From: a virus
Virus record (IMG/VR): IMGVR_UViG_3300037961_004868
Span: 1-33,054 of that record
DNA length: 33,054 nt
Strand: one strand, 5' to 3'
Below the pieces are notes generated by a model. The model searched no databases, was not told the origin of the DNA, and saw nothing but the letters and a program-made list of their open reading frames with translations. Shown piece after piece: positions 13,383 to 27,962 of the stretch. Every line of letters begins with the position of its first letter. The stretch's first letter is position 1. The position numbers were made by a program, and so were the translations under genes.

Positions 13383-14396
13383 ATGTCACAGTTAAGAGTT
13401 AATAACATTGCGGATACAGACGGCACTGGCCAGGTGTCACTTACATATGGTGCTGATGTTCCCACCCCAGGTCGAATTACTGTAGGTCTCTCTACAATTG
13501 GTCAAGAGGGTATTAACGCTGGTGTAAGTACCTTTACACAATTAAGTGTCCTTAATGACTTAGACCTCACAGGTAACATTTCACTGGGAGCTGGTGGTAC
13601 AATCAGAGGTGGCGGACAAAACCCCGCACTAGATCTCTCCGGTGATGCTTTTATCACTGGTGTTATCACTGCAACCACTTTCTTCGGTAGTGCTGCTGGT
13701 CTGACTGATCTCTCTCTTGAAGCTTCTGGAGAGTTCAACGCTGGTATTTCTTCAATGGTAGGAGTTGGAGTCACTTCAGGCATTGTTACCGCTTATAGTT
13801 GTGCCGTAAGTGGAGCTGGTGTTCAAATTGTTCACTCCATTCATGTGACAAACATTGGTAAAACTGATGCAAACGTCTACTGTTCTTGGGGACCTTCTGG
13901 AACCAATTACAACTATGGTTATGGAATCCCTGTTGTCGGTGGTGGTGCTTTAGAACTGATTCGTAGTCCAAAGATTCTTTCTCCTGGTGAACATATCAAC
14001 ATCTACTCAAATGTTGGTAATGTTGGAGGAGAATACTTACAAGCATTAGTTACGCTTGAAGATATTAATGCTGGATCTGCATATTTTAGTGGTGGAGTTG
14101 GATTAACTACCACCTTCACTGATTTGCACGTAACAACTGCAGATTCAATGATTCAAAGTATCTTACTTGCAAATGATTCTGAAGATGCTTTTGATGCTCG
14201 AGCAACTGTAGTATGGGCTAATGAATCTGATGTAACTCAGTATTATCTCTGCAGAGACCTGTTTATTCCTGGTGGTGCTTCTGTAGAAATTCTTGAGATG
14301 CCGAAGATGATTCCTAATGGTCATAAAATTAGAGTGTTATCAAGTGTCAGTGGTAGAGTAGACGCAACTGTGGCTGGAAGAACTGTAGCTTCTTGA
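13383..14396 (+). CDS. Tail-fibre protein with internally duplicated C-terminal domain
   Basis: 337 residues. The N-terminus MSQLRVNNIADTDGTGQVSL is a typical cyanophage fibre start, followed by a short VGLSTIG / TATTFFGSAAGLTDL shaft to about residue 115. The C-terminal part contains two related domains, about residues 145-229 and 254-337: IVHSIHVTN pairs with MIQSILLAN, VVGGGALELIRSPKILSPGEHI with FIPGGASVEILEMPKMIPNGHKI, and INIYSNVG with RVLSSVSG. This is a tandem duplication of one ~85-residue beta domain. It may form a paired or trimeric receptor-contact tip (inference). The stop is followed after 11 bases by the first RCC1-like gene. Confidence 0.75.
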   Translation: MSQLRVNNIADTDGTGQVSLTYGADVPTPGRITVGLSTIGQEGINAGVSTFTQLSVLNDLDLTGNISLGAGGTIRGGGQNPALDLSGDAFITGVITATTFFGSAAGLTDLSLEASGEFNAGISSMVGVGVTSGIVTAYSCAVSGAGVQIVHSIHVTNIGKTDANVYCSWGPSGTNYNYGYGIPVVGGGALELIRSPKILSPGEHINIYSNVGNVGGEYLQALVTLEDINAGSAYFSGGVGLTTTFTDLHVTTADSMIQSILLANDSEDAFDARATVVWANESDVTQYYLCRDLFIPGGASVEILEMPKMIPNGHKIRVLSSVSGRVDATVAGRTVAS

Positions 14397-14407
14397 GGTA
14401 AATAAAA

Positions 14408-16054
14408 ATGGGAATTAGTACAGAAAGAACCACACAAATCCATCAAACCAAAAGATGGAATAGAATAAGAGCTAGATCTTATCTGGCTACAAATGCACAG
14501 AAAGGAACATATAATACTAGTGAACTCAACTGGGTTGAGCACCAAGGTGAAATGGGCACTCCCCAACAACAAAATACTAGATTTAAATTTTGGGGTAATC
14601 TTAACTCTTCGATAAGATATGGTGGTGCGGGGATGAAACATAGCCACACCAGGTCGTCACCAGTTGTATTTGGAGGAGGAGGAGCATTCAGGGCCTTCGC
14701 TAGAATGGATCAATCATATAATGGTGCTGGTAATCAATACTGTGTTTATGTTTATGATTATGATGATAATCTTTGGGGATGGGGAGGAAATAATTATGGT
14801 CACTTTGGACACGGTGATACAATTATGAGATCATCTCCAGTTATATTAAATGGCTGGAATAGTCTTGGTCCCTTGAAAATGTTCAAGCATAGTCATTGGG
14901 GAGCAGTTGGTGTAACAACAGGCAGTGATCTTTATGTTTGTGGATATAATTATTATGGAAGATGGGGATTTACTGGGACTGAAGTATTTACGAACTGGGA
15001 CAATGATGGAAATTATATTGAGGGTTATAACACGGTTGGTGTTACGACACTAACCGAAGCCACTCATCTTAGTAAACCAGTTAGAATTGCTGGAAAGTGG
15101 AGAGACGCAAATCTTGGTGATAACACTCATACTAGAATCACTGATGAAGGTCAGTTTTTCATAGCTGGATATAATCATTATGGAATATTTGGTAACAATC
15201 AATCTGATGCCATTGGATACTCAAGTCCAGTAACAATTCCTGGTAAATTTAGAAGAATTGTTGAAAATACACATTATAATGTCTTCTTAGAAAATGATAA
15301 AGGACAAACCATGGTTACTGGAAATGAAACCAGTTCATGGTTTGGTAAAGGCGGTCCAAGTATACCTAGATCATCACCAGTTGCATTCCCTGGTACTTGG
15401 GCTAGGATTGTTCAATCTATTGGCGCTCATATCATGACCGACTATAGCGGTAACATTTGGGGAGTTGGACTGAATAATTATGGACAACTTGGTTTGGGAG
15501 ACAATAAAAACAGATCAAGACCTGTACTTATGTGGGCAGGACATCCAGATGGAACTGGAAAACCTGTAGAATTTAACTTCGCTGGTTCGGCATATGGTCA
15601 TTATTTCCTCCAAGATGATGATACATTATGGGGAGTTGGAATGAATTATAGTACTGGTACTATTTGGACATCTTCCGGCATGTCAGGTGCAGCTGCTGGA
15701 TGGTATCTGAACAGTTATTGGAGTTGTCAACCTGCATTCCTGTGGACTTCTCGTTCATTCATCAGATCATTTCCATGTTTTGTAAATGGTGGATGGAATG
15801 CAAAAATGGAAGATCCTGGAATTACTGAATGTAATGATCCATGGAAGTATAGTAGGCTCATTAGAGCCGGTTCTGCCGGTCTTATGGGATTCCATGTTCC
15901 TGGGGAAAGTGAGGGCACTGTTTGGTCTCAACATTATAGTGGAAGATCGGGAGAGTCTGATGTTCCATATTGGAATTTAAAAAATCGTGATATGTATACA
16001 TGGCATGATGATGATGTTGAACATCAAGGTGATTTCGGATATACGCCATCATGA
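14408..16054 (+). CDS. RCC1-type beta-propeller protein, copy 1
   Basis: 548 residues. After a basic N-terminus (MGISTERTTQIHQTKRWNRI) come at least five clear RCC1-type repeats with the core 'W-G-x-N-x-Y-G-x-x-G-x-G-D...RSSPV' (for example LWGWGGNNYGHFGHGD, IWGVGLNNYGQLGLGD, and FIAGYNHYGIFGNN), plus one or two degenerate ones toward the C-terminus. RCC1 repeats make a closed seven-bladed beta-propeller that binds partner proteins or glycans. GAGG 7-10 bases upstream is a ribosome binding site. Placement right after fibre genes suggests a virion or host-recognition role. The C-terminal ~100 residues are outside the regular repeat. There are two paralogues downstream. Confidence 0.85.
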   Translation: MGISTERTTQIHQTKRWNRIRARSYLATNAQKGTYNTSELNWVEHQGEMGTPQQQNTRFKFWGNLNSSIRYGGAGMKHSHTRSSPVVFGGGGAFRAFARMDQSYNGAGNQYCVYVYDYDDNLWGWGGNNYGHFGHGDTIMRSSPVILNGWNSLGPLKMFKHSHWGAVGVTTGSDLYVCGYNYYGRWGFTGTEVFTNWDNDGNYIEGYNTVGVTTLTEATHLSKPVRIAGKWRDANLGDNTHTRITDEGQFFIAGYNHYGIFGNNQSDAIGYSSPVTIPGKFRRIVENTHYNVFLENDKGQTMVTGNETSSWFGKGGPSIPRSSPVAFPGTWARIVQSIGAHIMTDYSGNIWGVGLNNYGQLGLGDNKNRSRPVLMWAGHPDGTGKPVEFNFAGSAYGHYFLQDDDTLWGVGMNYSTGTIWTSSGMSGAAAGWYLNSYWSCQPAFLWTSRSFIRSFPCFVNGGWNAKMEDPGITECNDPWKYSRLIRAGSAGLMGFHVPGESEGTVWSQHYSGRSGESDVPYWNLKNRDMYTWHDDDVEHQGDFGYTPS

Positions 16055-16088
16055 TGACTGAATATATAACAATAACACTCTATTATAG

Positions 16089-16112
16089 TTCTAAGATTTT
16101 TTAAACCAATGA
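16089..16112 (+). repeat. Repeated 5' leader, copy A
   Basis: TTCTAAGATTTTTTAAACCA leads into the ATG at 16109. An almost identical leader (one base gap and one mismatch) lies at 16876-16898 before the ATG at 16895. Neither contains a clear Shine-Dalgarno sequence. Confidence 0.6.
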
Positions 16113-16864
16113 AATATTTTAAATTTACACAAGTTTATAGTGAAACTCAACAATCAGTTCTCCTTTCCTCTGATGCGGAAACCTATGATAATAGAGTATT
16201 TCCATCATGTATTGATAATTTAAATTTGCTTTGGAATGCTAACCCATATTATTTTGGAACTGGTGATGATTCATCAACGGCAGATCCATCTAATTTAGTA
16301 GACGAGTTAACATTATCTGATTTTATTTCAGAATTGACAACTACTATTGGTAATTACAAAGATACCCAGAGAAATGTAAATCTCTCTTCTTACAATATTA
16401 GACATGATCAACTGTTAACACAGTTTGAATATTCAAATCCAGCTGGAGTTGTTTATAAGTACAATGAAGCAAATGCCTTTCTAAATGATGGTACTTTAAG
16501 CGGTTGGTTGCAAGCCGAATCAGAAGTTGCTGGAATTACAACAGCATCATTAGCTCAAGATTATGTTGATGATTATGATGATTTCAGAGTACAAGAGGCC
16601 AAACTCGCTGGATTAAAAACAAAGTGCAATAATAGAATTGAATTAATGGTTGTTGAATCTGATGGTAGTAATTTATCTGGAATTGCAACATATCAATCTG
16701 CTACAGAAGAATTAGGTTTATTTGATTTTGGTAGTGAAATTACTGAGGAAGTAAGAGCAAGTTTCCCAGAATTTGTTAATAAAGAGAATGATCAAATTTT
16801 TGATAATTATTTTAGTCCAGATCTTGGATTGAGATGGGACTATAGAGCAATGATTACTTTGTAA
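16109..16864 (+). CDS. Protein of unknown function between two propeller genes
   Basis: 251 residues, acidic, mostly helical by composition, with no recognised domain, signal peptide or membrane segment. The N-terminus (MKYFKFTQVYSETQQSVLLS) is followed by a mixed region and a likely helical stretch around residues 160-185 (DDFRVQEAKLAGLKTKCNNR). It sits between RCC1-type copies 1 and 2 and shares almost the same 5' leader sequence as copy 2. Possible roles are a fibre-assembly chaperone or a structural partner of the propellers. These are guesses from context only. Confidence 0.6.
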   Translation: MKYFKFTQVYSETQQSVLLSSDAETYDNRVFPSCIDNLNLLWNANPYYFGTGDDSSTADPSNLVDELTLSDFISELTTTIGNYKDTQRNVNLSSYNIRHDQLLTQFEYSNPAGVVYKYNEANAFLNDGTLSGWLQAESEVAGITTASLAQDYVDDYDDFRVQEAKLAGLKTKCNNRIELMVVESDGSNLSGIATYQSATEELGLFDFGSEITEEVRASFPEFVNKENDQIFDNYFSPDLGLRWDYRAMITL

Positions 16865-16875
16865 TATTAAGAACT

Positions 16876-16898
16876 TTCTAAATTTTTTAAAACAATGA
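16876..16898 (+). repeat. Repeated 5' leader, copy B
   Basis: TTCTAAATTTTTTAAAACA runs into the ATG at 16895 and is the counterpart of 16089-16112. The A/T-rich leader without Shine-Dalgarno is shared by two neighbouring genes, suggesting either a common duplication boundary or a shared expression signal. Confidence 0.6.
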
Positions 16899-18244
16899 GA
16901 GTAGGAATTTCCACCAGAACAACCACCGGTGTTCATAAATTGAATCAACATTATCGCAATCATCGTGATAAAAAGTTTCAAGTTGCAGAACTTGCTGGTC
17001 AAGGATTGGTAGCTGGTTACAACGGCACCGGCGCGTTTGGACTTGGAGTGAGTGGCGGTTACAGATCTTCTCCAGTTATTTGGGGTGGAAAAGGTCAGCC
17101 AATGATGGATATTACTTTGGCAAATCATCAACAGCACATGATGCAAGCTGTTGATAATGACGGCGATTTATGGATGACTGGATATTCATATTATGGTCAA
17201 TTTGGTGCTAACCAAGGGAATACCTATTATTCATCACCAGTACAAGTTCCAGGAACATGGACAAAGAACAGAGGTGGATTTCAATATTACACTACAACTT
17301 TTTGGAAAGATGATGAAGTATATCTTGCTGGATATAATGGTGTTGGTCAATTAGGGAATGGTGATACAGTTCCTCGATCATCACCAGTTAAACTAGAAGG
17401 AAAATGGTTCGCTAGAATTACAAATGTATATTATGATAATCACGCTTTTGAAAATGGTGGCCGAGTATGGGTTTGGGGATCTAATTACTATGGAGTTCTT
17501 GGATTAAACAACACAACCACCTATAGTTCTCCAATCATACAATATGGTAGTCATCAATGGGCTTGTTATAGACCCGGTAATTATTTTATTCACGCTATTG
17601 ATGGTGGTACAGGTAAACTTTGGGCCTGGGGACGCAATGATACTGCTCAGTTAGGGCAAGCAAACGTTCAACCATACTCATATCCTGTTGTACTGCCTGG
17701 ATCGTGGAGTTACTTCCCACCGAAGACTCCAGCAGGAGTAGGATGGCATGCTGGAATTAGAGATGGAAATTGTTATGTGTGGGGATCCAATTCTCATGGA
17801 CAACTTGGTATTGGACATAGAACAATCGCAAGTTCTATGATTTTATTACCCGGTACATGGGCTAAAACACAACCTGGGTCCTATTTCACGCAGTATCTTA
17901 CTGCTAAAGGAGACTATTACATTTCCGGTTATGTTTGGGTAAGTGGTATCGGTCAATATAGATCATCGCCAACCAGACTTCCAGGCAATTATAAGTATGA
18001 TCCAACGATGCCTTTTAATTGCGTGGGAGGTCCTAGCCGAGGAGGTTATGTATATTCACAAGAAACTGGAAAAGAATATATGTATGGATCTAACTATTAT
18101 AGCGGTGTAACTTTTGATCCAGTAAAAGGTAATAATTATCAATCAAGTCCAACACTTGTTCGTGGTGATTGGGCAACTCATGGTATGACAGCTGAAGGTA
18201 TCGGTGGTGGTTATAACGCATTTGGCATTGGTTCAACTTGTTAA
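16895..18244 (+). CDS. RCC1-type beta-propeller protein, copy 2
   Basis: 449 residues, with an N-terminus (MRVGISTRTTTGVHKLNQHY) like that of copy 1. About eight repeat units follow, for example LVAGYNGTGAFGLG..RSSPV, LWMTGYSYYGQFG..YSSPVQVPG, YLAGYNGVGQLGNGD..RSSPV, VWVWGSNYYGVLG..YSSP, LWAWGRNDTAQLG, and CYVWGSNSHGQLGIG. This is enough for a closed seven-bladed propeller with an extra strand or blade. The protein is leaner than copy 1, being almost all repeat. It contains no signal peptide. Host-recognition or virion decoration is inferred from position; the RCC1 fold itself is well supported. Confidence 0.85.
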   Translation: MRVGISTRTTTGVHKLNQHYRNHRDKKFQVAELAGQGLVAGYNGTGAFGLGVSGGYRSSPVIWGGKGQPMMDITLANHQQHMMQAVDNDGDLWMTGYSYYGQFGANQGNTYYSSPVQVPGTWTKNRGGFQYYTTTFWKDDEVYLAGYNGVGQLGNGDTVPRSSPVKLEGKWFARITNVYYDNHAFENGGRVWVWGSNYYGVLGLNNTTTYSSPIIQYGSHQWACYRPGNYFIHAIDGGTGKLWAWGRNDTAQLGQANVQPYSYPVVLPGSWSYFPPKTPAGVGWHAGIRDGNCYVWGSNSHGQLGIGHRTIASSMILLPGTWAKTQPGSYFTQYLTAKGDYYISGYVWVSGIGQYRSSPTRLPGNYKYDPTMPFNCVGGPSRGGYVYSQETGKEYMYGSNYYSGVTFDPVKGNNYQSSPTLVRGDWATHGMTAEGIGGGYNAFGIGSTC

Positions 18245-18268
18245 ATAGTTAAAAAATTTGATTTTGAT

Positions 18269-18895
18269 ATGCCCATTGATTTTTTCAATCCATATGATTG
18301 GATTGCATTCTATCCAAATGCAATCCCAGAACAACAATTAGTTGAATTAAATAAAGTACCAGAAACAGATATAAATGGCCCATCAAGAGCTAACTATGGG
18401 CATAAGTATGATGAAACAGAAAAGCAAGAGGATAGTGTTAGGCTAACAAACTGGTATACAATGAATTATTCATTGTACGATCAAACAAAAAAATCTTTTG
18501 AAGGATTTGTCAATAATGTTATTTTACCCAGATATGGATTAAAAACTTTTAAATCCTTTGAAGACATACAATTTTTATCTTATCCTGTAGGAGGTCATTA
18601 TGTTGTTCATAATGATTCAGAGTATTTTAATGATGATCTAAATAAATGGGAAAGGGTTGCTCCAAGGGATATAAGTGTAATAATGTATCTCAATGATAAT
18701 TTTGAGGGTGGAGAACTAGAATTTCCAGAATTAGGATTAACAATTAAACCACAAAGAGGATTAATAATCACTTTTCCATCATATTGCGAATTTGCACATG
18801 GGGTTAAACCTGTTATAAAAGGAGAAAGAAATGCTTTAGTGACATGGATAGAAACTCATGATAAAATGTATGACATAGAACCAACTCCCAAATAA
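18269..18895 (+). CDS. 2-oxoglutarate/Fe(II)-dependent dioxygenase (prolyl-4-hydroxylase type)
   Basis: 208 residues. The double-stranded beta-helix signature of the 2OG-Fe(II) oxygenase family is complete: iron ligands H114 and D116 in VVHNDSEYF, distal H177 in FAHGV, and R187 in KGERNALVTW as the 2-oxoglutarate anchor. ISVIMYLNDNFEGGELEFPE between them matches the prolyl-4-hydroxylase-like subgroup. The substrate is unknown. Candidates are protein side chains of the neighbouring virion proteins or a sugar/glycan. It lies between a propeller gene and the TPR-glycosyltransferase gene. Such oxygenases are frequent in marine T4-like phages. A second, more divergent member is at 24089. Confidence 0.85.
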   Translation: MPIDFFNPYDWIAFYPNAIPEQQLVELNKVPETDINGPSRANYGHKYDETEKQEDSVRLTNWYTMNYSLYDQTKKSFEGFVNNVILPRYGLKTFKSFEDIQFLSYPVGGHYVVHNDSEYFNDDLNKWERVAPRDISVIMYLNDNFEGGELEFPELGLTIKPQRGLIITFPSYCEFAHGVKPVIKGERNALVTWIETHDKMYDIEPTPK

Positions 18896-18929
18896 TTTTC
18901 ATTTATTCTTTTTAATAATAAGGCGAATC

Positions 18930-20405
18930 ATGACAAAAAGACTCAGAGAAGATCCTATTGAAAATCACATGTATCGAATTCCCGAATCTTCTGTCGGGCC
19001 ACTGTACGATGACCAAGAAGAATTTGGTAAAAATTTAATTCACAAACTAAAAGATATTTCATTTGATTTAGATAGAATTGGAGAATTTGAAGCAGCTGCA
19101 GCTATTGGTGATCTTGTTCTTAGAAGAATGCCAGATATGCAAATGTCTCTTGGTTGTGCAAGATGGTATTATGAATTAAGAAAGTATAAAAAATCACTCA
19201 AATATCTGGAATTTGCACTAAATAATGATCCGCAAAATCCAGAGATTCGATTAAATTACGCTAGAGTTTTATATTTTGATAAGCAGGCGGACAAATCTCT
19301 CGAAATCATGAACGAGTTAGTGGAAGAACATCCACAACTTTTGGATGATGATCAGATTTGTGTCGATTATTCAATGTTTAAAAGTGCCGTTGGTGATGTC
19401 AAAGGATCAATGGAATGTTTAGATAAACTTCCATCTGGATCCGAAGAAGGAGCTCAATTCGATTTTAATAGAGGATGGCACTATTTTTCTTTCGATCAAT
19501 TTAAGAAAGGATTTCAACATATTGATCGTGGAAGACCTTTAAATGTTTGGGGTAATTTCGATGTCCTAGAAGTTGAGGCAAAAATATCTCCTAACGATAT
19601 CTGGAAAAGAGGCGAAAAAGTTGATACAATTGCATATTACCTTGAAGGTGGTGTTGGTGATGAGTTTATCTTCTTGCGATATGTAAATTATTGGAAACAA
19701 TATTGCAATACTTTAAAAATCTTCTGCAATAAAAATATCCGAGATTTTTTGATCGAATGTGGTTACGAGAATGTATATACAAGAGATGAAATTCCATTTC
19801 ATTATGTTGACAAAGTTGTTCCTGCTATGTCGGCACCTCTTTATGGAGATTTTGATACCCCAAAAGATCATACAACTTTCCCATATCTTGTAAGAACTCC
19901 AGATAAAAATTCTCCCGCAGTTAAAAAAATGAGAGAAATTGCTGGAGATAAGAAAAAAGTAATAATTAAATGGGCAGGAAATCCAGATTTTGAACATGAA
20001 CAATTCAGAGTATTTCCTTTAGAATATCTTCTTGAACTAGAAAAATTAAATGATAAGATTCAAATCTTCCATGTTCAATTAGAACATAATGAAGGTCTTC
20101 CGAAAAATAGCAGTGTTTATGATCTTACAGAATACATTGATGATTGGAGAGATACATATGATATTTTCGACGAAGCAGACATAGTTATAAGTTCTTGCAC
20201 ATCTACCGCTCATTTGGCAGCTGCCATGGGTAAAAGATCATGTGTAATTTTGCCAATCGTTCCATATTTCTGTTGGGCTTCAGACAAAGATGTTTGGTAT
20301 GAAGATAATCTAACTCTATGCAAACAGACCAAATATGGCGATGAAGGATGGAAAGAAGCTATTGATAAAGCGATTAACATTGTTGAGGAGGAGTTATGTC
20401 AATAA
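18930..20405 (+). CDS. TPR protein fused to heptosyltransferase-like (GT9-type) domain
   Basis: 491 residues. The N-terminal ~200 residues contain tetratricopeptide-like helix pairs (for example YYELRKYKKSLKYLEFALNN with DPQNPEIRLNYARVLY), a protein-binding scaffold. From about residue 235 a GT-B-like domain begins (YYLEGGVGDEFIFLRY), continuing with IIKWAGNPDFEHEQFRVFPL and ending with DIVISSCTSTAHLAAAMGK and LPIVPYFCWASDKDVWY. The last block matches the nucleotide-sugar site of the ADP-heptose:LPS heptosyltransferase (GT9) fold. TPR-GT fusions of this kind are common in bacteria and often glycosylate protein. With HldE- and HldD-like genes nearby, an ADP-heptose donor is a plausible inference. 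Its end overlaps the next gene by 10 bases. Confidence 0.75.
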   Translation: MTKRLREDPIENHMYRIPESSVGPLYDDQEEFGKNLIHKLKDISFDLDRIGEFEAAAAIGDLVLRRMPDMQMSLGCARWYYELRKYKKSLKYLEFALNNDPQNPEIRLNYARVLYFDKQADKSLEIMNELVEEHPQLLDDDQICVDYSMFKSAVGDVKGSMECLDKLPSGSEEGAQFDFNRGWHYFSFDQFKKGFQHIDRGRPLNVWGNFDVLEVEAKISPNDIWKRGEKVDTIAYYLEGGVGDEFIFLRYVNYWKQYCNTLKIFCNKNIRDFLIECGYENVYTRDEIPFHYVDKVVPAMSAPLYGDFDTPKDHTTFPYLVRTPDKNSPAVKKMREIAGDKKKVIIKWAGNPDFEHEQFRVFPLEYLLELEKLNDKIQIFHVQLEHNEGLPKNSSVYDLTEYIDDWRDTYDIFDEADIVISSCTSTAHLAAAMGKRSCVILPIVPYFCWASDKDVWYEDNLTLCKQTKYGDEGWKEAIDKAINIVEEELCQ

Positions 20406-21154
20406 CAGATGTTTCTGGTAGAAAAGCAATATTTACTTTTTACAATGATCAAATTGATGACAAAATGATTTTTCTTCATCATGAAATTGTTGGAAGAATG
20501 TGTGAAGAAATTGAAGGTCTGGATTTCAGACCTTATAATTACCGAAAACCAGATGGAGAAATGTATCCAGATCAAGCAATGGATATTGGATTTAAAACTC
20601 TATTTTTGGAACATGACTATGAAATGGTAATGTCTTTAGAAATTGATTGTATACCTCTCAATAAAGAATCATTATTGTATGCATTCTCTAAAGCCAAAGA
20701 TGGTATTTTTATTGGCAACTCTCAAAGATCATGTCATATTGACAATAATGAACATATGTTCATTCCTCCATCTATGTTTGTGATGAATAGAGATCTATAT
20801 GAAAAACTAGAACGTCCCGATTTTAGACCAACAACCAGAGGAGATATTGGTGAAGAGTGTACTTATCAATGTGAAGAACTAGGTCTTCCTATGGAATTTT
20901 TAATGCCAAAAACTTATGAAAGAGAACCTATTGGGTTTCCTTGGGATCTTGGAAATGGTAGAAGTAAGTATGGTATTGGAACAACATATGCAAATGAAAA
21001 TGGGGATGAATTATTTTATCACTTATTTGAAAGTCGATTAGCTTGTTGGAACAGTTATTTTTATGATAAATGTGAAGAAGTAAAACCAGGAATTTTGAAT
21101 CATTTAACAGAAGAAATTATTAGACAATCAAACATAGAGTTTAAAGAAGAATAA
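20396..21154 (+). CDS. GT-A-like glycosyltransferase family protein, member 1
   Basis: 252 residues; ATG 20396 has GAGGAGGAG just upstream, inside the previous gene. The core MSLEIDCIPL (E82-x-D84) resembles the DxD-type metal/nucleotide site of GT-A transferases. Other landmarks are FIGNSQRS, PPSMFVMNRDLYEKLERPDF and the C-terminal YGIGTTYANENG..FYHLFESRL. The protein is clearly related to the gene at 30675: SLEIDCIPL/FLDIDCYIT, MFVMNRDLYEKL/CFMIHKQAWIAL, EPIGF, and a terminal G-T-x-Y...H block. Substrate unknown. It is cotranscribed with the TPR-GT gene and probably acts in the same glycan pathway. The glycosyltransferase call is moderate, since only the short acidic motif and layout support it. 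Confidence 0.6.
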   Translation: MSITDVSGRKAIFTFYNDQIDDKMIFLHHEIVGRMCEEIEGLDFRPYNYRKPDGEMYPDQAMDIGFKTLFLEHDYEMVMSLEIDCIPLNKESLLYAFSKAKDGIFIGNSQRSCHIDNNEHMFIPPSMFVMNRDLYEKLERPDFRPTTRGDIGEECTYQCEELGLPMEFLMPKTYEREPIGFPWDLGNGRSKYGIGTTYANENGDELFYHLFESRLACWNSYFYDKCEEVKPGILNHLTEEIIRQSNIEFKEE

Positions 21155-21160
21155 TCATTC

Positions 21161-21168
21161 TATAAATA
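21161..21168 (+). promoter_or_regulatory. T4-type late promoter box (TATAAATA)
   Basis: An exact TATAAATA lies 33 bases before the start of the third RCC1-type gene at 21202 and after the stop at 21154. This implies that this propeller gene is expressed late, with virion genes. Confidence 0.8.
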
Positions 21169-21201
21169 ACTTTATCTAGATCTCATAGATTCAGTATAAA
21201 A

Positions 21202-22533
21202 ATGATTAGTACCTCAGGACCTAGTGCTCAGAGACCAAAAAGAAACGAGGGTGTATATAACTTAGATGAAGTCGTAAGACTTAATCATGCCAACCCTAAA
21301 GGACCGAGGGGAGAAGCAACTCATTGGTGGTGGGCCGGATATATACCCTACTGGGGAAATCCTTGCCATGCAGGAGGATCGACTGGTGCGGTATATTGGA
21401 GTTCTCCTGTTCTAGCAAGAGGCAGGTGGAAACAAGTTTGTAGTACAGCATATATACACTGGGCAATTAGAGATGATGGAACAATGTGGTCCTCTGGAGG
21501 ACCCAATACTTATGGCATCCGCGGCGACGGAACTGCTGGTAGTCCAAATAACTATGCATCATCTCCTACTCAAGTTGCAGGAACAAATTGGTTCTCATTA
21601 AGGGACAATGGTATTGATTCCATAATCACTACTAACGCACAACATACTAGTAGTATGATGGCCATGAAAGAAGATAAAAGTCTTTTTGCATGGGGAAGAA
21701 ATAATAGTGCAAACTTAGGATTGAACGATACAGTTGATCGATCAGCGCCAGTACAAATTCCAGGTAGCAACTGGACCGATTATGGATTCAATAACTATAG
21801 TGGTTTCGCATTTAAAGATAATGGAGAACTATGGGAATGGGGAACAAATGGATACATTCATGGAACAGATCATGATTTAGTTGCTGGGTATTATGCAAGA
21901 TCTTCACCGTACCTTATTCCTGGATCCTGGGCAGAAGCTTCAAAGGGGCACGATCATACTGTTGCTATTAAACAGGATGGTACTGGATGGTGCTGGGGCC
22001 AAAACAGTTATGGTCAATTAGGAAATAATGATAATATCCCACGTTCTTCACCGGTTCAATTCACTGCTGGATCGGGTCTTTACCAAAGATGTTTTGCTGG
22101 AGGATCCTGTACAGTATTCATTGATACTGATGGACATTCTTGGTATAGTGGGGACAACAGAACTGGAGGGGCATTTAGATTTAATAGTAACGTTATAAGT
22201 TCTCCAGTATTAATGCCAGGACACTGGGATGGTTTTAGATTGGGCAACCAGGGCAATCTGGGTAATTTTGGTAGAAGTCGTGAAGATGGCAACTGGTGGT
22301 TTGTTGGTTATGATTATGCTGGAAGAGCTGGTCTTTGCAGAACTAGACAGGACAGTTTTAATTCAGCGGCCGCATACAGATCTGCTCCGTGTAGAATTGG
22401 ATACAGATGGACAGACATTGCAAATGATTATTATTCCACATGGTTCACCAAAGATAACTCATATAATTATCCAATGATGCATGGTCCAACAGGTGGTGGA
22501 CAAGGAGCTTCAGATAGACACGGTAGACTTTAA
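21202..22533 (+). CDS. RCC1-type beta-propeller protein, copy 3
   Basis: 443 residues. After ~45 residues of basic N-terminus there are seven repeat units, fitting a single seven-bladed propeller: WWWAGYIPYWG..YWSSPV, MWSSGGPNTYGIRGDG..YASSPTQV, LFAWGRNNSANLGLND..RSAPVQIPG, LWEWGTNGYIHG..ARSSP, GWCWGQNSYGQLGNND..RSSPVQF, SWYSGDNRTGGAF..ISSPVLMPG, and WWFVGYDYAGRAGL..YRSAP. It is preceded by an exact late promoter box, so a virion or late role is likely. It is separated from copies 1 and 2 by the oxygenase and two glycosyltransferase-type genes, as if the propeller and modification genes move or evolve together. Confidence 0.85.
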   Translation: MISTSGPSAQRPKRNEGVYNLDEVVRLNHANPKGPRGEATHWWWAGYIPYWGNPCHAGGSTGAVYWSSPVLARGRWKQVCSTAYIHWAIRDDGTMWSSGGPNTYGIRGDGTAGSPNNYASSPTQVAGTNWFSLRDNGIDSIITTNAQHTSSMMAMKEDKSLFAWGRNNSANLGLNDTVDRSAPVQIPGSNWTDYGFNNYSGFAFKDNGELWEWGTNGYIHGTDHDLVAGYYARSSPYLIPGSWAEASKGHDHTVAIKQDGTGWCWGQNSYGQLGNNDNIPRSSPVQFTAGSGLYQRCFAGGSCTVFIDTDGHSWYSGDNRTGGAFRFNSNVISSPVLMPGHWDGFRLGNQGNLGNFGRSREDGNWWFVGYDYAGRAGLCRTRQDSFNSAAAYRSAPCRIGYRWTDIANDYYSTWFTKDNSYNYPMMHGPTGGGQGASDRHGRL

Positions 22534-22551
22534 TTTCATTATATTTTTATT

Positions 22552-23238
22552 ATGCACTTACTACGATCAAATTCAAGAGAATGCAACAAAGCATTCATCA
22601 TTTCACTTAGAGATAACGAAGAATCAGAAAAACTTACTAACCGATGTTCGGAATCATGTAAAAACGTTGGTCAAAACTATGAAGTATTTTATGGTTTTGA
22701 CGGAAATAGTGGTAAAATAATCATACCTCCAGAACTAGAAAACCAACAGTGGTTAAATTGGTTCAAGGTTACAACAGATCTCATTAGTCCCACTCAAATT
22801 TCTTGTTTTTTGAGTCATATGGCTTTGTGGTCTAAATGTCTGGAATTGGATGAACCTATTGTAATTCTGGAACATGATGCACTTATGGTTAAAAAGTATG
22901 ATTTTCATACTCACTATAATGCAATTTGTTATCTTGGTGGACTAGAACAATTTGAAAATAGTATGCCAAAACCAGATACATATGATGGTCCTCCTCCAAT
23001 GGGGTCTGAGTGTAATAAAAGAGGGTTTTTTATCTGTAGGGCTCATGCATATGCCATTGATCCAGCAGTTGCAAAGAATTTATTGTCATATGTTCTTCAA
23101 AATGGACTATATACTTCATTGGATGTTGCAATAAAATCAGATATTTTTAACATATATCAAGATGATTTTTATGCGTATGACAAACCAGGAATCTCCACAA
23201 TTCATAAAGATTGGAGATATTTAAAATCTGAAATTTAA
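22552..23238 (+). CDS. Glycosyltransferase family 25 protein
   Basis: 228 residues. The GT25 (LPS/LOS glycosyltransferase, LgtB/Lex1-like) layout is visible: an N-terminal strand AFIISLRDNEESE, then SPTQISCFLSHMALWSKC (~79-96) and PIVILEHDA (~102-110), where the usual ED.D motif reads E-H-D. GFFICRAHAYAIDPAVAKNL follows as in family members. The known family transfers galactose or glucose to lipooligosaccharide or to collagen hydroxylysine. It starts 18 bases after propeller copy 3. The His in the acidic motif is unusual and may change metal use. A role in glycosylating a virion protein or cell-surface glycan is inferred. Confidence 0.75.
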   Translation: MHLLRSNSRECNKAFIISLRDNEESEKLTNRCSESCKNVGQNYEVFYGFDGNSGKIIIPPELENQQWLNWFKVTTDLISPTQISCFLSHMALWSKCLELDEPIVILEHDALMVKKYDFHTHYNAICYLGGLEQFENSMPKPDTYDGPPPMGSECNKRGFFICRAHAYAIDPAVAKNLLSYVLQNGLYTSLDVAIKSDIFNIYQDDFYAYDKPGISTIHKDWRYLKSEI

Positions 23239-23250
23239 TTTGTATTTTTT

Positions 23251-24087
23251 ATGAATAACCAACTTACTAATGTCAAGGGAGATGAATATCCCAATTCTTT
23301 AGATCATGCTATGGATATGATCTATGAACCTAAGAAAATTATTCATATTCTAAACATCGATAATTTTTTCCCAGAACTTTTTGAGTTATGTTTTCCTACA
23401 GTAGAAAGATATGCCAAAAAACATGGTTATGAGATCAATTTAATTACGGAAAGAAAATTTCCAGAATGGCATATTAACTATGAAAAGATGCAAGTCTGGG
23501 AAGATGGAAAGGATGCCGATGTTAATGTTCTGATGGATGCGGATGTTCTTATCCATCCAATGATGAAAGACTTTGCATTTATTGTTCCACCAACACACAT
23601 TGGATTTAACGACAACTATTTTATGCGTACAAAGTTTAGAGTCGTTAATAGATCACATGAAATGGATTTCATAAGAGATCAAAGAAACATTGGTGTTGCT
23701 TCAAACTTAGTTGTTGCACATAAATCAACTCATTGTGTATTTGAACCACTAGATATTACTCCAGAAGAAGGAAGAAAAATTTGTACTGTTCGTGAAGGAG
23801 ATATTGATGAATATACCATTTCACATAACGTAGCAAAATACGGATTAAAATATTGTGGAATTACATGGGAAGATTGGATGCGTAATTTCTTAGTTCATAC
23901 TGGAACTGGTGATAAAGATCTTGCTCTCCGTATGGCAACATCAACTCTAGAGAAATGGAAAAAACGTAATTGGAAATCTTTTTATCCACAAGGATACGAT
24001 ATATCCCAAGTTTATACGCAAGAAGAACTGAATAGTGAATACAACGACACCAATTTTGTAATACCACAAGAAAGAATTATCGTTTGA
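23251..24087 (+). CDS. Putative glycosyltransferase with DxD motif
   Basis: 278 residues. A likely GT-A transferase: an early strand IIHILNIDNFFPELF, HGYEINLITERKFPEWHINY and a D96-A-D98 motif in VNVLMDADVLIHP, followed by FIVPPTHIGFNDNY. The 'YEKMQVWED...D-A-D' arrangement resembles galactosyl/xylosyltransferase-like (GT34 or related) enzymes. Conserved catalytic residues beyond the DxD cannot be assigned. It follows the GT25 gene by 12 bases and precedes the next start by one base, so it is part of one operon. The family assignment is tentative. Confidence 0.6.
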   Translation: MNNQLTNVKGDEYPNSLDHAMDMIYEPKKIIHILNIDNFFPELFELCFPTVERYAKKHGYEINLITERKFPEWHINYEKMQVWEDGKDADVNVLMDADVLIHPMMKDFAFIVPPTHIGFNDNYFMRTKFRVVNRSHEMDFIRDQRNIGVASNLVVAHKSTHCVFEPLDITPEEGRKICTVREGDIDEYTISHNVAKYGLKYCGITWEDWMRNFLVHTGTGDKDLALRMATSTLEKWKKRNWKSFYPQGYDISQVYTQEELNSEYNDTNFVIPQERIIV

Positions 24088-24733: not shown

Positions 24734-25412
24734 ATTATTTGAACACCACGACGGCCGAGAGTGTGGCAAGTGGAAACATTACTTCGATGTTTATGAAAGA
24801 TACTTCCAATCTTATGTTGGGAAAGAAGTATACATTCTAGAACTTGGCGTATGTCAAGGTGGAAGTCTTCAACTATGGAAAAAATACTTTGGAGATAAGG
24901 CTAAAGTTGTAGGTGTTGACATTGATCCAAGAGCAAAATATGAAGAAGATCAAATTGAGGTAGAAATTGGTGATCTTCGAGATTCAAAATTTTTAAAGTA
25001 TTTGATTGAAAAACATGGTAGACCAGATATTATCATCGATGATGCTAGCCATGAAACACAACAAACTCTTTGGACTTTCGGATTTTTCATGCCAACATTA
25101 GATGATAATGGAATATATGTAATTGAAGACACACATACGCACTATCGTCCAGAGTATAATGGAGGAACCAAAAATCCATTTAATATCATTAATGCATTAT
25201 CTGCAATGACTCATGATGTAAATGTTAATCATATTGAGGAAGCATTCACTCCTGGATTAGGATCTGTTAAATCAATTTCATATTACGATAGTCTTGTAAT
25301 TCTTGAAAAAGGCAATACAGAAACTGAACCCGTCTTTAGAGGAATAAGTCAATATAATGATAAAGTAACCGCAGAAGAAGAGGCAGTTCAAATGCAAACT
25401 AGACCACGATGA
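24720..25412 (+). CDS. Class I SAM-dependent methyltransferase (MycE/CmcI-like)
   Basis: 230 residues. Motif I ILELGVCQGGSLQLW (~39-53), acidic loop VVGVDIDP (~63-70), IIIDDASHE (~104-112) and IYVIEDTHT (~132-140) correspond to the SAM-binding Rossmann core and the metal-binding acidic residues of the mycinamicin 2''-O-methyltransferase / cephalosporin hydroxylase-like group. That group commonly O-methylates sugars. Its place just before the nucleotide-heptose genes makes sugar O-methylation plausible. It overlaps the gene before by 14 bases and the gene after by 4 (ATGA). A second SAM methyltransferase-like gene is at 28092. Confidence 0.75.
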   Translation: MKLNELFEHHDGRECGKWKHYFDVYERYFQSYVGKEVYILELGVCQGGSLQLWKKYFGDKAKVVGVDIDPRAKYEEDQIEVEIGDLRDSKFLKYLIEKHGRPDIIIDDASHETQQTLWTFGFFMPTLDDNGIYVIEDTHTHYRPEYNGGTKNPFNIINALSAMTHDVNVNHIEEAFTPGLGSVKSISYYDSLVILEKGNTETEPVFRGISQYNDKVTAEEEAVQMQTRPR

Positions 25413-25810
25413 GTAAAACTATTTTCATTAATGGATGTTTTGATGTGATTCATCGTGGTCACATCGAACTTTTCAAATTTGCTAGTTACCTTGGAGACAG
25501 ACTCATTGTAGCAATCGATGAAGATGATCGGATTCGTAAGTCAAAAGGACCAAAAAGACCGATAAACATATTAGAAGATAGAATGTATGTTTTACGATCA
25601 ATTAAGTATGTTGATGAAGTAGAACATTTTGGTTCTGATGAGGAATTGGAAAACCTTGTCAAGAAATATAATCCTGATATAATGATAGTAGGTTCCGATT
25701 GGATTGGAAAAAAAGTTATAGGATCACAATATGCAAAAACCATTCGATTCTTCAACAGAATTGGACACTATTCCACCACAAACATCGTTGAAGGTTCTTC
25801 TTATCGGTGA
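25409..25810 (+). CDS. rfaE2: HldE C-terminal-like nucleotidyltransferase (heptose-1-phosphate adenylyltransferase type)
   Basis: 133 residues, about the length of the C-terminal domain of bifunctional HldE. The nucleotidyltransferase signature is NGCFDVIHRGH (H15-R-G-H18), followed by LGDRLIVAIDEDDR, a GPKRPIN block, EDRMYVL, a PDIMIVGSDW segment and the STTNI motif (122-126) characteristic of the HldE/RfaE2 group. The known reaction is ATP plus D-glycero-beta-D-manno-heptose 1-phosphate to ADP-heptose. Related cytidylyltransferases share HxGH, so the exact substrate is inferred from the STTNI motif and the adjacent kinase. The 3' end overlaps the kinase gene by 80 bases in another frame. 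Confidence 0.8.
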   Translation: MSKTIFINGCFDVIHRGHIELFKFASYLGDRLIVAIDEDDRIRKSKGPKRPINILEDRMYVLRSIKYVDEVEHFGSDEELENLVKKYNPDIMIVGSDWIGKKVIGSQYAKTIRFFNRIGHYSTTNIVEGSSYR

Positions 25811-26528
25811 ATCTTGCCAAGATGTATATCGTTATGGAATTTGTAATAGAGTAAGTCCAGAAGCTCCCGTTCCTGTACTAGATTTTGTAAAAGAAAAAAT
25901 TAGTTATGGAATGGCAGCTAATGTTAAAAGTAATCTCGAATCCTTTGGTATTGCTGTTGACTTTTTGTCAAACAAATCTGAAGATATCATTCGGAGAAGA
26001 TTTGTTGATCTTAAATGTTATCAACAATTAATGAGAGAAGATGTTAACAATCATATAAAACCATTGATTCCTCAATTTTTTGGTGAATATGATGCTGTTG
26101 TTTTTTCTGATTATGATAAAGGATTGATTGATAATGAATTTATTTCATTTGTAATTGATTCTGTAAAATGTCCTATCTTTGTTGACACAAAGAAAAAAGA
26201 TCTATCTGCCTATAGTGGTTGTATCTTAAAAATCAATAAAAAAGAATATGATGAGTCAGTATCTATTCCATCCAATAGTGAACTCATTGTCACTCTTGGA
26301 TCTGAAGGTGCTTTTTATCGAGAAAAAACATTTTCAACACCAAAAGTAGATGTCTATGATGTCACTGGTGCTGGAGATGTTTTTTTAGCTACATTAGTTT
26401 ATACTTATCTAAAAACTAGAGATTTCAATCTATCAATTCCAGAATCAATTAAGATGGCAACACGTTCTGTTCAACATACAGGAACATATACACTTACACA
26501 AGAGGATGTAAATGAAGTACGTTATTGA
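25731..26528 (+). CDS. rfaE1: HldE N-terminal-like PfkB sugar kinase (heptose-7-phosphate kinase type)
   Basis: 265 residues. RVSPEAPVPV (~37-46) is diagnostic of the RfaE1/HldE kinase domain. A modified GGAANV site (GMAANV) follows, then VVFSDYDKGLI and the PfkB signature DVTGAGD with the catalytic base D216. The tail RSVQHTGTYTLTQEDV also fits. The known reaction phosphorylates D-glycero-D-manno-heptose 7-phosphate at C1. From memory of E. coli HldE, the region between the GxxANV site and NQQL (here YQQL) is about 20-25 residues shorter, so the lid/sugar region is reduced. ATG 25731 has AGGA seven bases upstream; a TTG at 25788 would avoid most of the overlap. A 17-base overlap joins it to the next gene. 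Confidence 0.8.
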   Translation: MQKPFDSSTELDTIPPQTSLKVLLIGESCQDVYRYGICNRVSPEAPVPVLDFVKEKISYGMAANVKSNLESFGIAVDFLSNKSEDIIRRRFVDLKCYQQLMREDVNNHIKPLIPQFFGEYDAVVFSDYDKGLIDNEFISFVIDSVKCPIFVDTKKKDLSAYSGCILKINKKEYDESVSIPSNSELIVTLGSEGAFYREKTFSTPKVDVYDVTGAGDVFLATLVYTYLKTRDFNLSIPESIKMATRSVQHTGTYTLTQEDVNEVRY

Positions 26529-26847
26529 CATTGATGGTACAATTTGTGATAAATCAGAAGATATGTGGCATGATGGAGATTATTCACATTCCGTTCCAAA
26601 AAAAGATAGAATTATTGAAATAAATAAACTCTATGATGATGGTCATGAAATTACTTATCTGACCGCTAGAGGAATGGGTAGACACAAGAATTCTTCTACA
26701 CTTGCACACAAAGAATTTTATAATCTAACATTCAATCAATTAATTCAGTGGGGATGTAAGTTTCATGCTCTACATCTAGGAAAACCTGCTGGTGATCTTT
26801 ATATTGATGACAAAGGTATTAATGCAAATGACTTCTTCACAAAATGA
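26512..26847 (+). CDS. HAD-superfamily phosphatase (capsule/sugar-phosphate type)
   Basis: 111 residues. All four HAD motifs are present: D6-I-D8-G-T, T51 in TYLTARG, K91 in LGKPAGD and D99-D100 in YIDDKGIN. There is no large cap, so small or extended substrates are likely. Similar short HAD proteins occur in bacterial capsule loci. In the heptose pathway a HAD phosphatase (GmhB) removes the 7-phosphate from heptose-1,7-bisphosphate between the HldE kinase and adenylyltransferase steps. Position directly after the kinase gene suggests such a role, but this protein is much shorter than GmhB (~190 residues) and belongs to another HAD subgroup. The function assignment is inference. Confidence 0.7.
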   Translation: MKYVIDIDGTICDKSEDMWHDGDYSHSVPKKDRIIEINKLYDDGHEITYLTARGMGRHKNSSTLAHKEFYNLTFNQLIQWGCKFHALHLGKPAGDLYIDDKGINANDFFTK

Positions 26848-27199
26848 CCCAATAAAATTCGTTCCTAAAGGATGGGGATATGAAAAGTGGATCACAAATG
26901 GTTCGCTTTACTGTGGCAAAATTTTATGGATGTGTAAAGACAAACAATGTTCTTGGCATTATCATCATAAAAAAGATGAAGTTTTCTACGTACAAAGTGG
27001 AAAAATTAGGATATACTGGAGCAACTTTGACGATTTTGAAATGGCTTATGTCAAAGAATTAAATCCAGGTGAAAAGTTTCATGTCCCTCCTGGTATGAGA
27101 CATAGGATGAAAGCACTAGAAGATACTGAATTATTTGAATTCAGTACAGAACATTTTGAAGATGATAGTTATAGAATTATAATTGGAGATACTCTTTAA
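26828..27199 (+). CDS. Cupin-fold metal-binding protein (sugar-isomerase-like)
   Basis: 123 residues from ATG 26828 (MTSSQNDPIKFVPKGWGYEK); the frame is open further upstream but only inside the HAD gene, and the WGYEKW start is characteristic. H44-Y-H46 with E51 (WHYHHKKDEVF) and H92 (PPGMRHRM) form the standard cupin metal site. The small size and the W-G-Y-E-x-W opening resemble the C-terminal cupin of mannose-6-phosphate isomerase type II and single-domain sugar cupins. It could isomerise or epimerise a sugar phosphate. It overlaps the HAD gene by 20 bases and runs tail-to-tail into the opposing epimerase gene, overlapping it by 23 bases. Confidence 0.7.
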   Translation: MTSSQNDPIKFVPKGWGYEKWITNGSLYCGKILWMCKDKQCSWHYHHKKDEVFYVQSGKIRIYWSNFDDFEMAYVKELNPGEKFHVPPGMRHRMKALEDTELFEFSTEHFEDDSYRIIIGDTL

Positions 27200-27962
27200 T
27201 TGTAGTAAAGTCATATCCATCTATCCATTGCATATTTGCAATCGTATATTCTTGATACTTTCCAATAAGATGCTGAGGGAACGGAATTGTTACAATTTCC
27301 GCTCCCTCTTTTTTAGCAATAATTTTTGCCACATCGAGAAAACTAATTGGTGTTCCAGTTCCGAGATCGTAAATTCCAGACGATGCTTCATTGTTCAGGA
27401 CAATATCAACCACGTCAGAAACACACACAAAATCCCTCCAGAATCGATCAGAACCTTCAAAAACTTTGATTACACCAGTATCCCTAGCCTGGTTAGTAAA
27501 CGTCGTTACAGGACTACTCTGACTCCCCTTATTCTCTTTTGATCCATATACATTGAAGTATCTAAATCCCTGGATAAATTTAAACTTATCAAAATTATCC
27601 TGAACAAACATGTCCACGATATATTTGGAAGTAGCATAGTAATTAAGTGGATTAATTTCATCAATGAATCTTCCGTAAACCGATGCAGACGATGCGTATT
27701 TTACTGGAATTTGATATTGAATCGCTTTTTTAAAAAGTTGAATCGAAAATTCAATATTGTACTTATTAATTTTATTCCAATCAGTCTCAACTGTAGAAGA
27801 AATTGCTCCCTGATGAATAATTATTTCGACTTCATTCCAATTATCAAAGTCATTAATGAAATCAAAACAATCGCCAATTTCTACACAGTAAATATGTTTA
27901 TATGAAAAATTATTCAACATATGATTTCCAATAAATCCCTTTGCGCCTGTAAGGATAATCAT
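27177..27962 (-). CDS. hldD: HldD-type ADP-glyceromanno-heptose 6-epimerase
   Basis: 261 residues on the minus strand, the only clear minus-strand gene in the window. Extended SDR features: G6-AK-G9-FI-G12 nucleotide-binding loop at the N-terminus, KYASSASVYG (~88-97), Y109-xxx-K113 in NYYATSKYIV, RYFNVYGSKENKGSQSSPV (~134-152), KVFEGSDRFWRDFV (~166-179), YDLGTGTPISFLDVA, and PFPQHLIGKYQEYT. The FNVYG...KGS and FEGS-x-x-F-x-RDFV blocks are specific to HldD/RfaD, which converts ADP-D,D-heptose to ADP-L,D-heptose. E. coli HldD is about 310 residues, so this is a short version. It has its own upstream promoter at 27984-28013. Confidence 0.85.
   Translation of the reverse strand: MIILTGAKGFIGNHMLNNFSYKHIYCVEIGDCFDFINDFDNWNEVEIIIHQGAISSTVETDWNKINKYNIEFSIQLFKKAIQYQIPVKYASSASVYGRFIDEINPLNYYATSKYIVDMFVQDNFDKFKFIQGFRYFNVYGSKENKGSQSSPVTTFTNQARDTGVIKVFEGSDRFWRDFVCVSDVVDIVLNNEASSGIYDLGTGTPISFLDVAKIIAKKEGAEIVTIPFPQHLIGKYQEYTIANMQWIDGYDFTTIKEYLQL

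Follow-up and report, generated by a model that had tools for sequence, protein, structure and literature searches.

A marine phage encoding three RCC1-type propeller proteins in a tail-fibre region

A propeller cassette with late-type features

The record IMGVR_UViG_3300037961_004868 (33,054 nt; the whole stretch analysed is called the window here) is a marine virus of bacteria with three propeller proteins of the RCC1 type, probably ring-shaped. As a sequence-only reading of this DNA had proposed, open reading frames starting at 14408, 16895 and 21202 encode RCC1 proteins of 443-548 residues: propeller A at position 1 (14408..16054, 548 aa), propeller B at position 2 (16895..18244, 449 aa, four Pfam RCC1 stretches) and propeller C at position 3 (21202..22533, 443 aa), all on the plus strand. 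Each exceeded the Pfam RCC1 cut-off of 21.7 bits (40.6, 84.5 and 44.8 bits for A, B and C) and matched PHROG 4219, ‘regulator of chromosome condensation’. The three genes have no DNA word longer than 14 nt in common, and a single-protein scan with propeller B returned no matches.

The same reading had described an alternation with other genes, all of which are present on the plus strand. Directly 5′ of propeller 1 lies FIB, a fibre-like gene (13383..14396) whose C-terminal two-part domain is conserved in an alignment with loci L001-L005. An orphan gene (16109..16864; 20-29% identity to relatives) separates propellers 1 and 2, and is followed after propeller B by a 2OG-Fe(II) oxygenase gene (18269..18895; PF13640, E 5e-16), in which the HxD...H metal triad and the arginine are intact by alignment (H114, D116, H177, R187). 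Next come a gene joining TPR and glycosyltransferase domains (TPR-GT; 18930..20405) and a gene (20396..21154) that is a probable GT-A enzyme by motif: it had no Pfam match, and carries the invariant Asp of a DxD-like motif in alignments, ExD in the window version. Downstream of propeller C lie a GT25 family glycosyltransferase gene (22552..23238; PF01755, E 2.5e-15; PDB GT25 match, E 2e-4) and GTy, a conserved glycosyltransferase-like gene (23251..24087). The order FIB-RCC1-orphan-RCC1-2OG-TPR-GT-RCC1 was found in 19 of 36 non-redundant loci and partially in 6 more; a hand-made list served to remove near-duplicate loci from this count and from the position-identity comparisons of tags and bodies below. 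The orphan matched nothing in Pfam or PHROG. By eye it had been suspected to be a tail-fibre assembly protein, a candidate left unsupported by an hhalign probability of 0.2% to the lambda, Mu and P2 assembly proteins (only 3 template sequences) and by PHROG matches in that check that were weak or to unnamed families.

Structure prediction, suggested earlier as a check for closed seven-blade rings, was run with AF2 on propeller A, the most degenerate of the three. Mean pLDDT was 66; residues 110-420 mostly reached 76-96, with dips to about 50-60 near 190-220, 310-320 and 380-390, whilst the last blade and C-terminus were poorly modelled and both terminal parts fell below 50. The best PDB matches were RCC1-like domains (HERC2, E 3e-20; UVR8, target-normalised TM 0.77 over 420 columns), and TM-scores against complete RCC1-like domains were 0.73-0.77 by target, so that propeller A is likely to form a complete RCC1 ring.

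An exact copy of the late-type promoter motif TATAAATA (21161..21168, plus strand) lies 41 nt upstream of gene C, and none was found upstream of A or B; the earlier statement that at least one propeller gene has an exact late promoter is thus borne out for gene C only. ATAAATA was not enriched over the whole window (6 found against 14.3 expected). In relatives it clusters upstream of FIB (11/22), the orphan (14/26) and the third propeller (12/20), where 0.015 would be expected per 70 nt. Scans for sigma-70 promoters and terminators gave counts not above those of shuffles. Judged by sequence, the three propeller genes are late-type.

Fixed tags and variable bodies

Comparison of the propellers among related phages, also proposed beforehand, revealed that the three positions are conserved, as in the 19 loci above, and that the bodies diverge strongly. 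An N-terminal tag of about 30 residues keeps its position identity across phages: identity between propellers at the same position exceeded that between different positions by 11.6 points (0 of 1000 permutations). Position identity was nearly absent from the bodies (+0.25 points, 82 of 1000); with tag lengths of 25, 30 and 35 residues, the body label signal was equalled in 45, 82 and 52 of 1000 permutations. Doubled or cut genes, with propellers outside 355-560 aa, were left out of the permutations and pairwise comparisons, and one further tag comparison left out those outside 355-470 aa, the window's A among them.

The near-identical phages L042 and L054 have fibre and enzyme sequences of 77-97% identity and propeller bodies of 43-47%, no higher than between unlike positions. 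Similarly, the rest of L033 and L036 is 78-97% identical, compared with 38, 57 and 55% for their propeller bodies. Not every pair shows this loss: the bodies of L044 and L045 do hold position (62-69% versus 39%). Variable blade positions are rich in Tyr, Ser, Asn and Gly. A conserved N-terminal anchor with a variable distal domain is therefore a feature of close relatives, of which the window itself has none; its tags are only 12-39% identical to those of L005, L033 and L042 and, given this divergence and the lack of longer common DNA words, the tag and body result comes mainly from relatives. The pattern looks like that of receptor-binding heads on fixed sockets.

RCC1-type proteins of about 40 kDa are known from phages W70 (phrog_4219), GAP32, phAPEC6 and 121Q, and MS has detected such proteins in virions (PMC5259590; PMC11370258). 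In GAP32 the protein detected was GAP_001 (PMC5259590). Escherichia coli phage W70 has three tandem RCC1 genes, and all three proteins were detected in virions (PMC11370258). We found that these three have an N-terminal MLEMxNL segment in common. They differ from the cassette propellers in being remote in sequence and encoded outside a fibre operon, and no TPR-GT or GT25 is annotated near their genes; modification thus appears dispensable for some RCC1 virion proteins.

The W70 authors read their proteins as agents of DNA condensation (PMC11370258), and a role in condensing or ordering DNA within the capsid, proposed for phAPEC6 and W70, has the family name and the eukaryotic RCC1 precedent behind it (PMC7247149; PMC11370258). 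For the propellers of the window we regard this role as very improbable: bodies that are hypervariable between near-identical phages are ill-suited to a conserved function on DNA, the genes sit in a fibre operon, and some bacterial relatives carry export signals.

RCC1 propellers are general platforms for protein binding, and BLIP-II is an RCC1-like binder that inhibits beta-lactamases. By these precedents, the propellers might be intracellular inhibitors of host proteins that are absent from the virion. The location of the genes in a late fibre operon and the virion location of the W70 proteins (PMC11370258) render this improbable.

We consider it likely that the propellers are recognition heads, given the fixed tags and hypervariable bodies, the late fibre operon and the published virion location of the three W70 proteins. 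The first reading had suggested a set of alternative recognition proteins. The recognition part agrees with our inference, but we doubt the word ‘alternative’: all three positions are retained jointly in 19 loci, each with its own tag, and look more like components that act in concert.

The TPR-glycosyltransferase and its association with RCC1 genes

The TPR-GT comprises a TPR superhelix (residues about 30-215, by Pfam) and a GT-B domain (226-491, by fold), and was modelled as TPR plus a GT-B fold of the GT9/heptosyltransferase type. Structural matches to the latter were the GT9 enzyme 3tov (Z 16.8), heptosyltransferase II (Z 16.2), TibC (Z 16.2; 242 aligned, 3.0 Å) and WaaC (Z 15.8). Foldseek ranked SPINDLY/OGT first, with low TM-scores, and a PDB sequence search returned almost exclusively TPR proteins. 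No glycosyltransferase Pfam family matched the window protein, nor was one among the families listed for 4 members.

Two known systems resemble this architecture. Like the autotransporter heptosyltransferases TibC and AAH (BAHT; PMC4358343), the TPR-GT has a GT9-type GT-B core of the heptosyltransferase type, with a repeat-bearing adhesin as putative acceptor and possibly ADP-heptose as donor. It is nevertheless not a BAHT: the four conserved Cys of the iron finger are missing from its aligned GT half, a TPR domain replaces the N-terminal beta-barrel, and the putative acceptor is a propeller instead of a beta-helix (PMC4358343). With the protein-acting O-GlcNAc transferase and SPINDLY (GT41) it has in common a TPR superhelix joined to a GT-B domain, although no GT41 sequence match was seen and its GT half fits GT9 enzymes better.

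RCC1 genes were present at 40 of 42 loci of the TPR-GT scan. Loci shorter than 8 kb, or identical in their central 300 nt, were omitted from the control sets, and two locus scans took the best 80 of 581 and the best 80 of 418 loci. Among the matches listed, 62 GTy loci comprised 18 with both RCC1 and TPR-GT, 43 with neither, 1 with TPR-GT only and none with RCC1 only; 65 loci with the 2OG oxygenase comprised 3 with both and 62 with neither. The Fisher p of 4e-23 for this coupling is illustrative only, because the two sets have some phages in common. TPR-GT and GT25 each co-occurred with RCC1 genes far more than the control enzymes did, and GT25 also occurs alongside TPR-GT. Accordingly, the earlier suggestion that the propellers are modified by the enzymes encoded between them is supported for the TPR-GT, as is modification by GT25 just downstream. 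It is not supported for the 2OG oxygenase or for GTy, relatives of which lie mostly at loci without RCC1, and a propeller-dedicated role of the oxygenase was rejected. The TPR-GT also adjoins genes of Tat-signal RCC1 proteins in Bdellovibrionales contigs.

So tight a coupling could in principle reflect a folding or assembly chaperone whose transferase activity has been lost. This would be hard to reconcile with the full conservation of GT core residues, D244 (the Asp of GxGD) among them, across 27 of 27 sequences, and we give it very little weight.

Hypervariable islands that combine glycosyltransferases and rfaE-type genes with fibre genes are known as the host recognition clusters of pelagimyophages and cyanomyophages (PMC7029224). 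A term search of the text of that paper yielded no RCC1, and its glycosyltransferases are read as acting on host LPS; an RCC1 mention in PMC12906663 proved to be strain codes and not the protein. On that published reading, the glycosyltransferases of the window would alter host surface glycans against superinfection, with the propellers as separate receptor-binding proteins merely in the same island, and GT25 and ADP-heptose genes are indeed typical of LPS. We think this unlikely, as TPR-GT is coupled to RCC1 in a way that other island enzymes are not, also next to Tat-signal RCC1 genes of bacterial contigs, and protein O-glycosyltransferases are likewise built from TPR and GT-B parts.

Candidate glycosylation and the ADP-heptose genes

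Our data are consistent with a model, which we favour with some reserve as a whole, in which all three propellers are made late and carried on the virion as recognition heads of the tail-fibre region, docked by their tags and glycosylated by TPR-GT and GT25. Each of the three positions would have a short tag of its own that holds the propeller at its site on the particle, and the seven-blade bodies would be interchangeable, fast-changing binding surfaces. Glycosylation by the TPR-GT, which on balance we think probable, would precede assembly, when the propellers are folded in the host cytoplasm: the TPR part would recognize the propeller, the GT-B domain would transfer the sugar and GT25 would then extend it.

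A wider picture, plausible but less probable, is a glycoprotein adhesin system of three fixed addresses, exchangeable heads and a dedicated cytoplasmic TPR-GT and GT25 machine. Propeller cassettes might be exchanged or homogenized within this trio of genes, with multiplication in sevens to lengths of about 375, 730 and 1050-1180 aa, and bacteria might use the TPR-GT for Tat-exported RCC1 surface proteins.

If the model holds, one group of myoviruses from marine and fresh waters attaches to its hosts by propeller heads, not by fibre tips alone, and sugar-coats those heads with its own enzymes. This would account for some phage glycosyltransferases presently assigned to host LPS, point to a function of phage RCC1 proteins different from DNA condensation, and offer a natural example of exchangeable heads on constant sockets.

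The phage appears to encode most of an ADP-heptose pathway. Candidate genes are an HldE-type heptose-1-phosphate adenylyltransferase (25409..25810, plus strand; TIGR02199, E 6.5e-32, under the NCBI cut-off), an HldE-type heptose-7-phosphate kinase (25731..26528, plus; TIGR02198, E 1.2e-34, under cut-off), a HAD phosphatase for a possible GmhB-like step (26512..26847, plus; TIGR01689, E 1.4e-5) and an HldD-type ADP-heptose 6-epimerase (27177..27962, minus; TIGR02197, E 6.9e-55, under cut-off). We tentatively suggest that the first sugar in the window phage may be heptose, donated from ADP-heptose. The HldE-type adenylyltransferase was not found in the complete S-SRM01; among 30 records, most of them fragments, it was present in 13, one of these weakly (E 1.6e-4).

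Three RCC1 propellers in a recurrent cassette

The window, which covers 33,054 of the 36,163 bases of an IMG/VR virus record, appears to come from a T4-like myovirus and to hold its tail-fibre region. A tail fibre gene at 3349 matched PHROG family phrog_529, a gene at 11512 is of the baseplate/fibre-connector type, and Synechococcus and Prochlorococcus phages encode relatives of the protein at 9255. No near DNA match to the window was found among 50,697 phage records. The sequence-only reading had proposed three RCC1-type propellers, and propellers A, B and C (genes at 14408, 16895 and 21202) all passed the Pfam RCC1 cut-off. The model of propeller A, the most degenerate, resembles an RCC1-type ring, with weak N- and C-terminal parts.

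Scanning IMG/VR with the orphan gene (16109) and with the TPR-glycosyltransferase (TPR-GT, 18930), and annotating with profiles built for the analysis, yielded a set of 36 non-redundant loci, one of them being the window. The order fibre-like gene (FIB, 13383), RCC1, orphan, RCC1, 2OG oxygenase (18269), TPR-GT, RCC1 was present in 19/36, with GT-A (20396) and extra 2OG genes optional. The cassette was partial or without a recognised FIB in six loci, and 11 were arranged otherwise, RCC1 still being present in nine of those. The sole phage record with an orphan match, Marine virus AG-345-E08, is an unannotated contig with the gene order of the window. The isolated freshwater cyanophage S-SRM01 carries three RCC1 genes, TPR-GT and a GT-A gene within one stretch, and in BUCT-ZZ01 TPR-GT adjoins a double RCC1 gene.

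Propeller genes fall into three size classes: about 375 aa, mostly with 6-8 repeat matches; about 730 aa, mostly with 12-15; and about 1050-1180 aa, mostly with 19-20. We read these as one, two or three predicted rings. All three propeller genes of L043 are of double size. In L305 (477), a protein of 2,570 aa in which 34 RCC1 repeats were matched is encoded close to TPR-GT and GT25. Several cassettes have, after the glycosyltransferase-like gene GTy, another TPR-GT-like gene that is shorter (about 296-357 aa): L028 (18236), L033 (15267), L036 (18177), L042 (18127) and L054 (18192).

The motif ATAAATA, which we take to be the T4-type late promoter, occurred at most 70 nt upstream of 11/22 FIB, 14/26 orphan, 12/20 third-propeller and 7/31 2OG genes, and was rare before first-propeller (1/26), second-propeller (1/25) and TPR-GT (1/28) genes; 117 copies lay on the plus strand versus 7 on the minus strand. 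This placement before FIB, orphan and third propeller suggests three late units: FIB with the first propeller, the orphan with the second, and the third alone. The exact late-promoter motif claimed for at least one window propeller is present before C, and not before A or B; over the whole window, the motif count was below the shuffle mean.

Position-typical tags and divergent bodies

The short start segment of each propeller (the tag, about 30 residues) is typical of its position, approximating KGVWxLQxVRD at the first, GVWxLDxVYxK at the second and RxNTWxLxxxYD at the third. When each of 59 single-size propellers was paired with its nearest neighbour, the tag paired with one from the same position in 56 cases; the body (the remainder) paired with one from the same position in 28, from another position in another phage in 22 and from the same phage in nine. 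When position labels were permuted across 16 phages, the observed signal was reached in 0/1000 trials for tags and 82/1000 for bodies. Body identity across 16 phages was higher within a phage (48.7%) than between phages at the same position (43.2%), the RCC1 framework setting a floor near 43%. The comparison of propeller number and sequence among related phages, suggested earlier as a check, revealed three recurring positions; the tags keep their position identity and the bodies mostly lose it.

The pair L042/L054 illustrates this pattern: identity is 93% for fibre, 87% for orphan, 77% for 2OG, 92% for TPR-GT, 97% for GT-A, 95% for GT25 and 96% for GTy; the tags are 62, 87 and 83% identical and the bodies 47, 46 and 43%, equalling unlike-position (46%) and within-phage (46-48%) values. 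L033/L036 are similar (bodies 38, 57 and 55% versus 78-97% for other genes), although the mean between unlike positions is 38% there, and two bodies remain above it. L044/L045 show the opposite pattern, with bodies at 62-69% and unlike positions at 39%. The framework hardly changes over 344 blades from relatives; variation falls at positions 12-13, 18-19, 35, 37-38 and 46-48, where Tyr, Ser, Asn, Gly and Asp are frequent. Sequence exchange among propeller genes is plausible in relatives, where genes of one phage have identical DNA stretches as long as 43 nt in common, but is not visible in the window, where such stretches reach only 11-14 nt.

RCC1 virion proteins have been described: PMC11370258 places three among the 28 virion proteins of phage W70, and PMC5259590 names GAP_001 of GAP32. 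PMC7247149 counts eleven RCC1-like proteins. The authors of these papers suspect a role in DNA condensation; the variability pattern of the propellers argues otherwise. The W70 genes (L130, 7543-11041) are in tandem, with no TPR-GT annotated nearby, and match our repeat profile weakly: two had E-values of 0.02 and 1.5, and no match was listed for the remaining one. All three products start MLEMxNL, perhaps a common docking tag. Host-recognition clusters are likewise described in PMC7029224. Within the open-access literature, including passages of PMC12906663, PMC7029224 and PMC4358343, no account of the cassette, position tags or RCC1/TPR-GT link was found; the outline and passages of PMC8557907 yielded no proteomics.

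Coupling of putative modifying enzymes to RCC1

Among loci picked by TPR-GT motifs alone, 40/42 contained RCC1 genes, many loci being near-duplicates; after redundancy was removed, and with loci from the orphan scan included, the figure was 31/33. Of 62 control loci centred on GTy (23251 in the window), 18 had both RCC1 and TPR-GT, 43 neither, one TPR-GT only and none RCC1 only. For 2OG (n=65), among the matches listed, three had both and 62 neither; for GT25 (22552; n=68, from the best 80 of 418 loci), 56 had both, seven TPR-GT only, three RCC1 only and two neither. The core is therefore RCC1, TPR-GT and the GT25 clade, and 2OG and GTy are general. The proposal that interleaved enzymes modify the propellers accordingly keeps its footing for TPR-GT, which is coupled to RCC1, and loses it for 2OG.

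RCC1 and TPR-GT co-occurred in 18/56 bacterial contigs, 17 of them among the first 21, the closest relatives; some look like phage DNA, and L072 has the cassette order. In Bdellovibrionales, three RCC1 proteins whose starts are complete (L076, L081 and L088) open with twin-arginine motifs, identified by eye, suggesting export after cytoplasmic folding. Two Planctomycetota contigs of 2-2.8 Mb (L092 and L104) have RCC1 then TPR-GT, with a similar ~526-aa gene downstream in both, and this region may be prophage. Rhizobium/Agrobacterium contigs (L101, L107, L110, L112, L113, L115, L116 and others) carry a TPR-GT-like pair of ~1,670 and ~500 aa without RCC1.

Fold and possible donor of TPR-GT

The AF2 model of TPR-GT is good (pLDDT 90.4). 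The first Foldseek rows were SPINDLY and OGT. In the comparison scored by Z, the C-terminal half aligned with GT9 3tov (Z 16.8, 249 aligned, 3.3 Å), ADP-heptose LPS heptosyltransferase II (Z 16.2), TibC (Z 16.2) and WaaC (Z 15.8), all within 1 Z unit of each other; OGT rows reached Z near 15, yet with an rmsd near 16-17 Å. G241, G243 and D244 are invariant in 27/27 sequences, and we infer that D244 is the WaaC/TibC-type base. GT9 enzymes have a donor-loop Asp; an SCT motif stands in its place in TPR-GT, which disfavours simple heptose use. The window does encode ADP-heptose-type genes (HldE-type kinase and adenylyltransferase, HAD phosphatase and HldD-type epimerase), all below NCBI cut-offs. 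Because the adenylyltransferase and epimerase occur in 13/30 and 14/30 records (most being fragments, and some matches weak), and the adenylyltransferase was not found in complete S-SRM01, heptose as donor is a guess for the window phage and no general rule.

The epimerase gene (27177-27962) lies on the minus strand, opposite to its neighbours, and in several relatives it also lies opposite to the adenylyltransferase. A second match to our GT-A-like profile lies at 30675-31418. A NodU/NolO-type carbamoyltransferase (31424-32977; phrog_1601, E 2e-112; NF041651, E 6e-50) perhaps decorates the same or another glycan.
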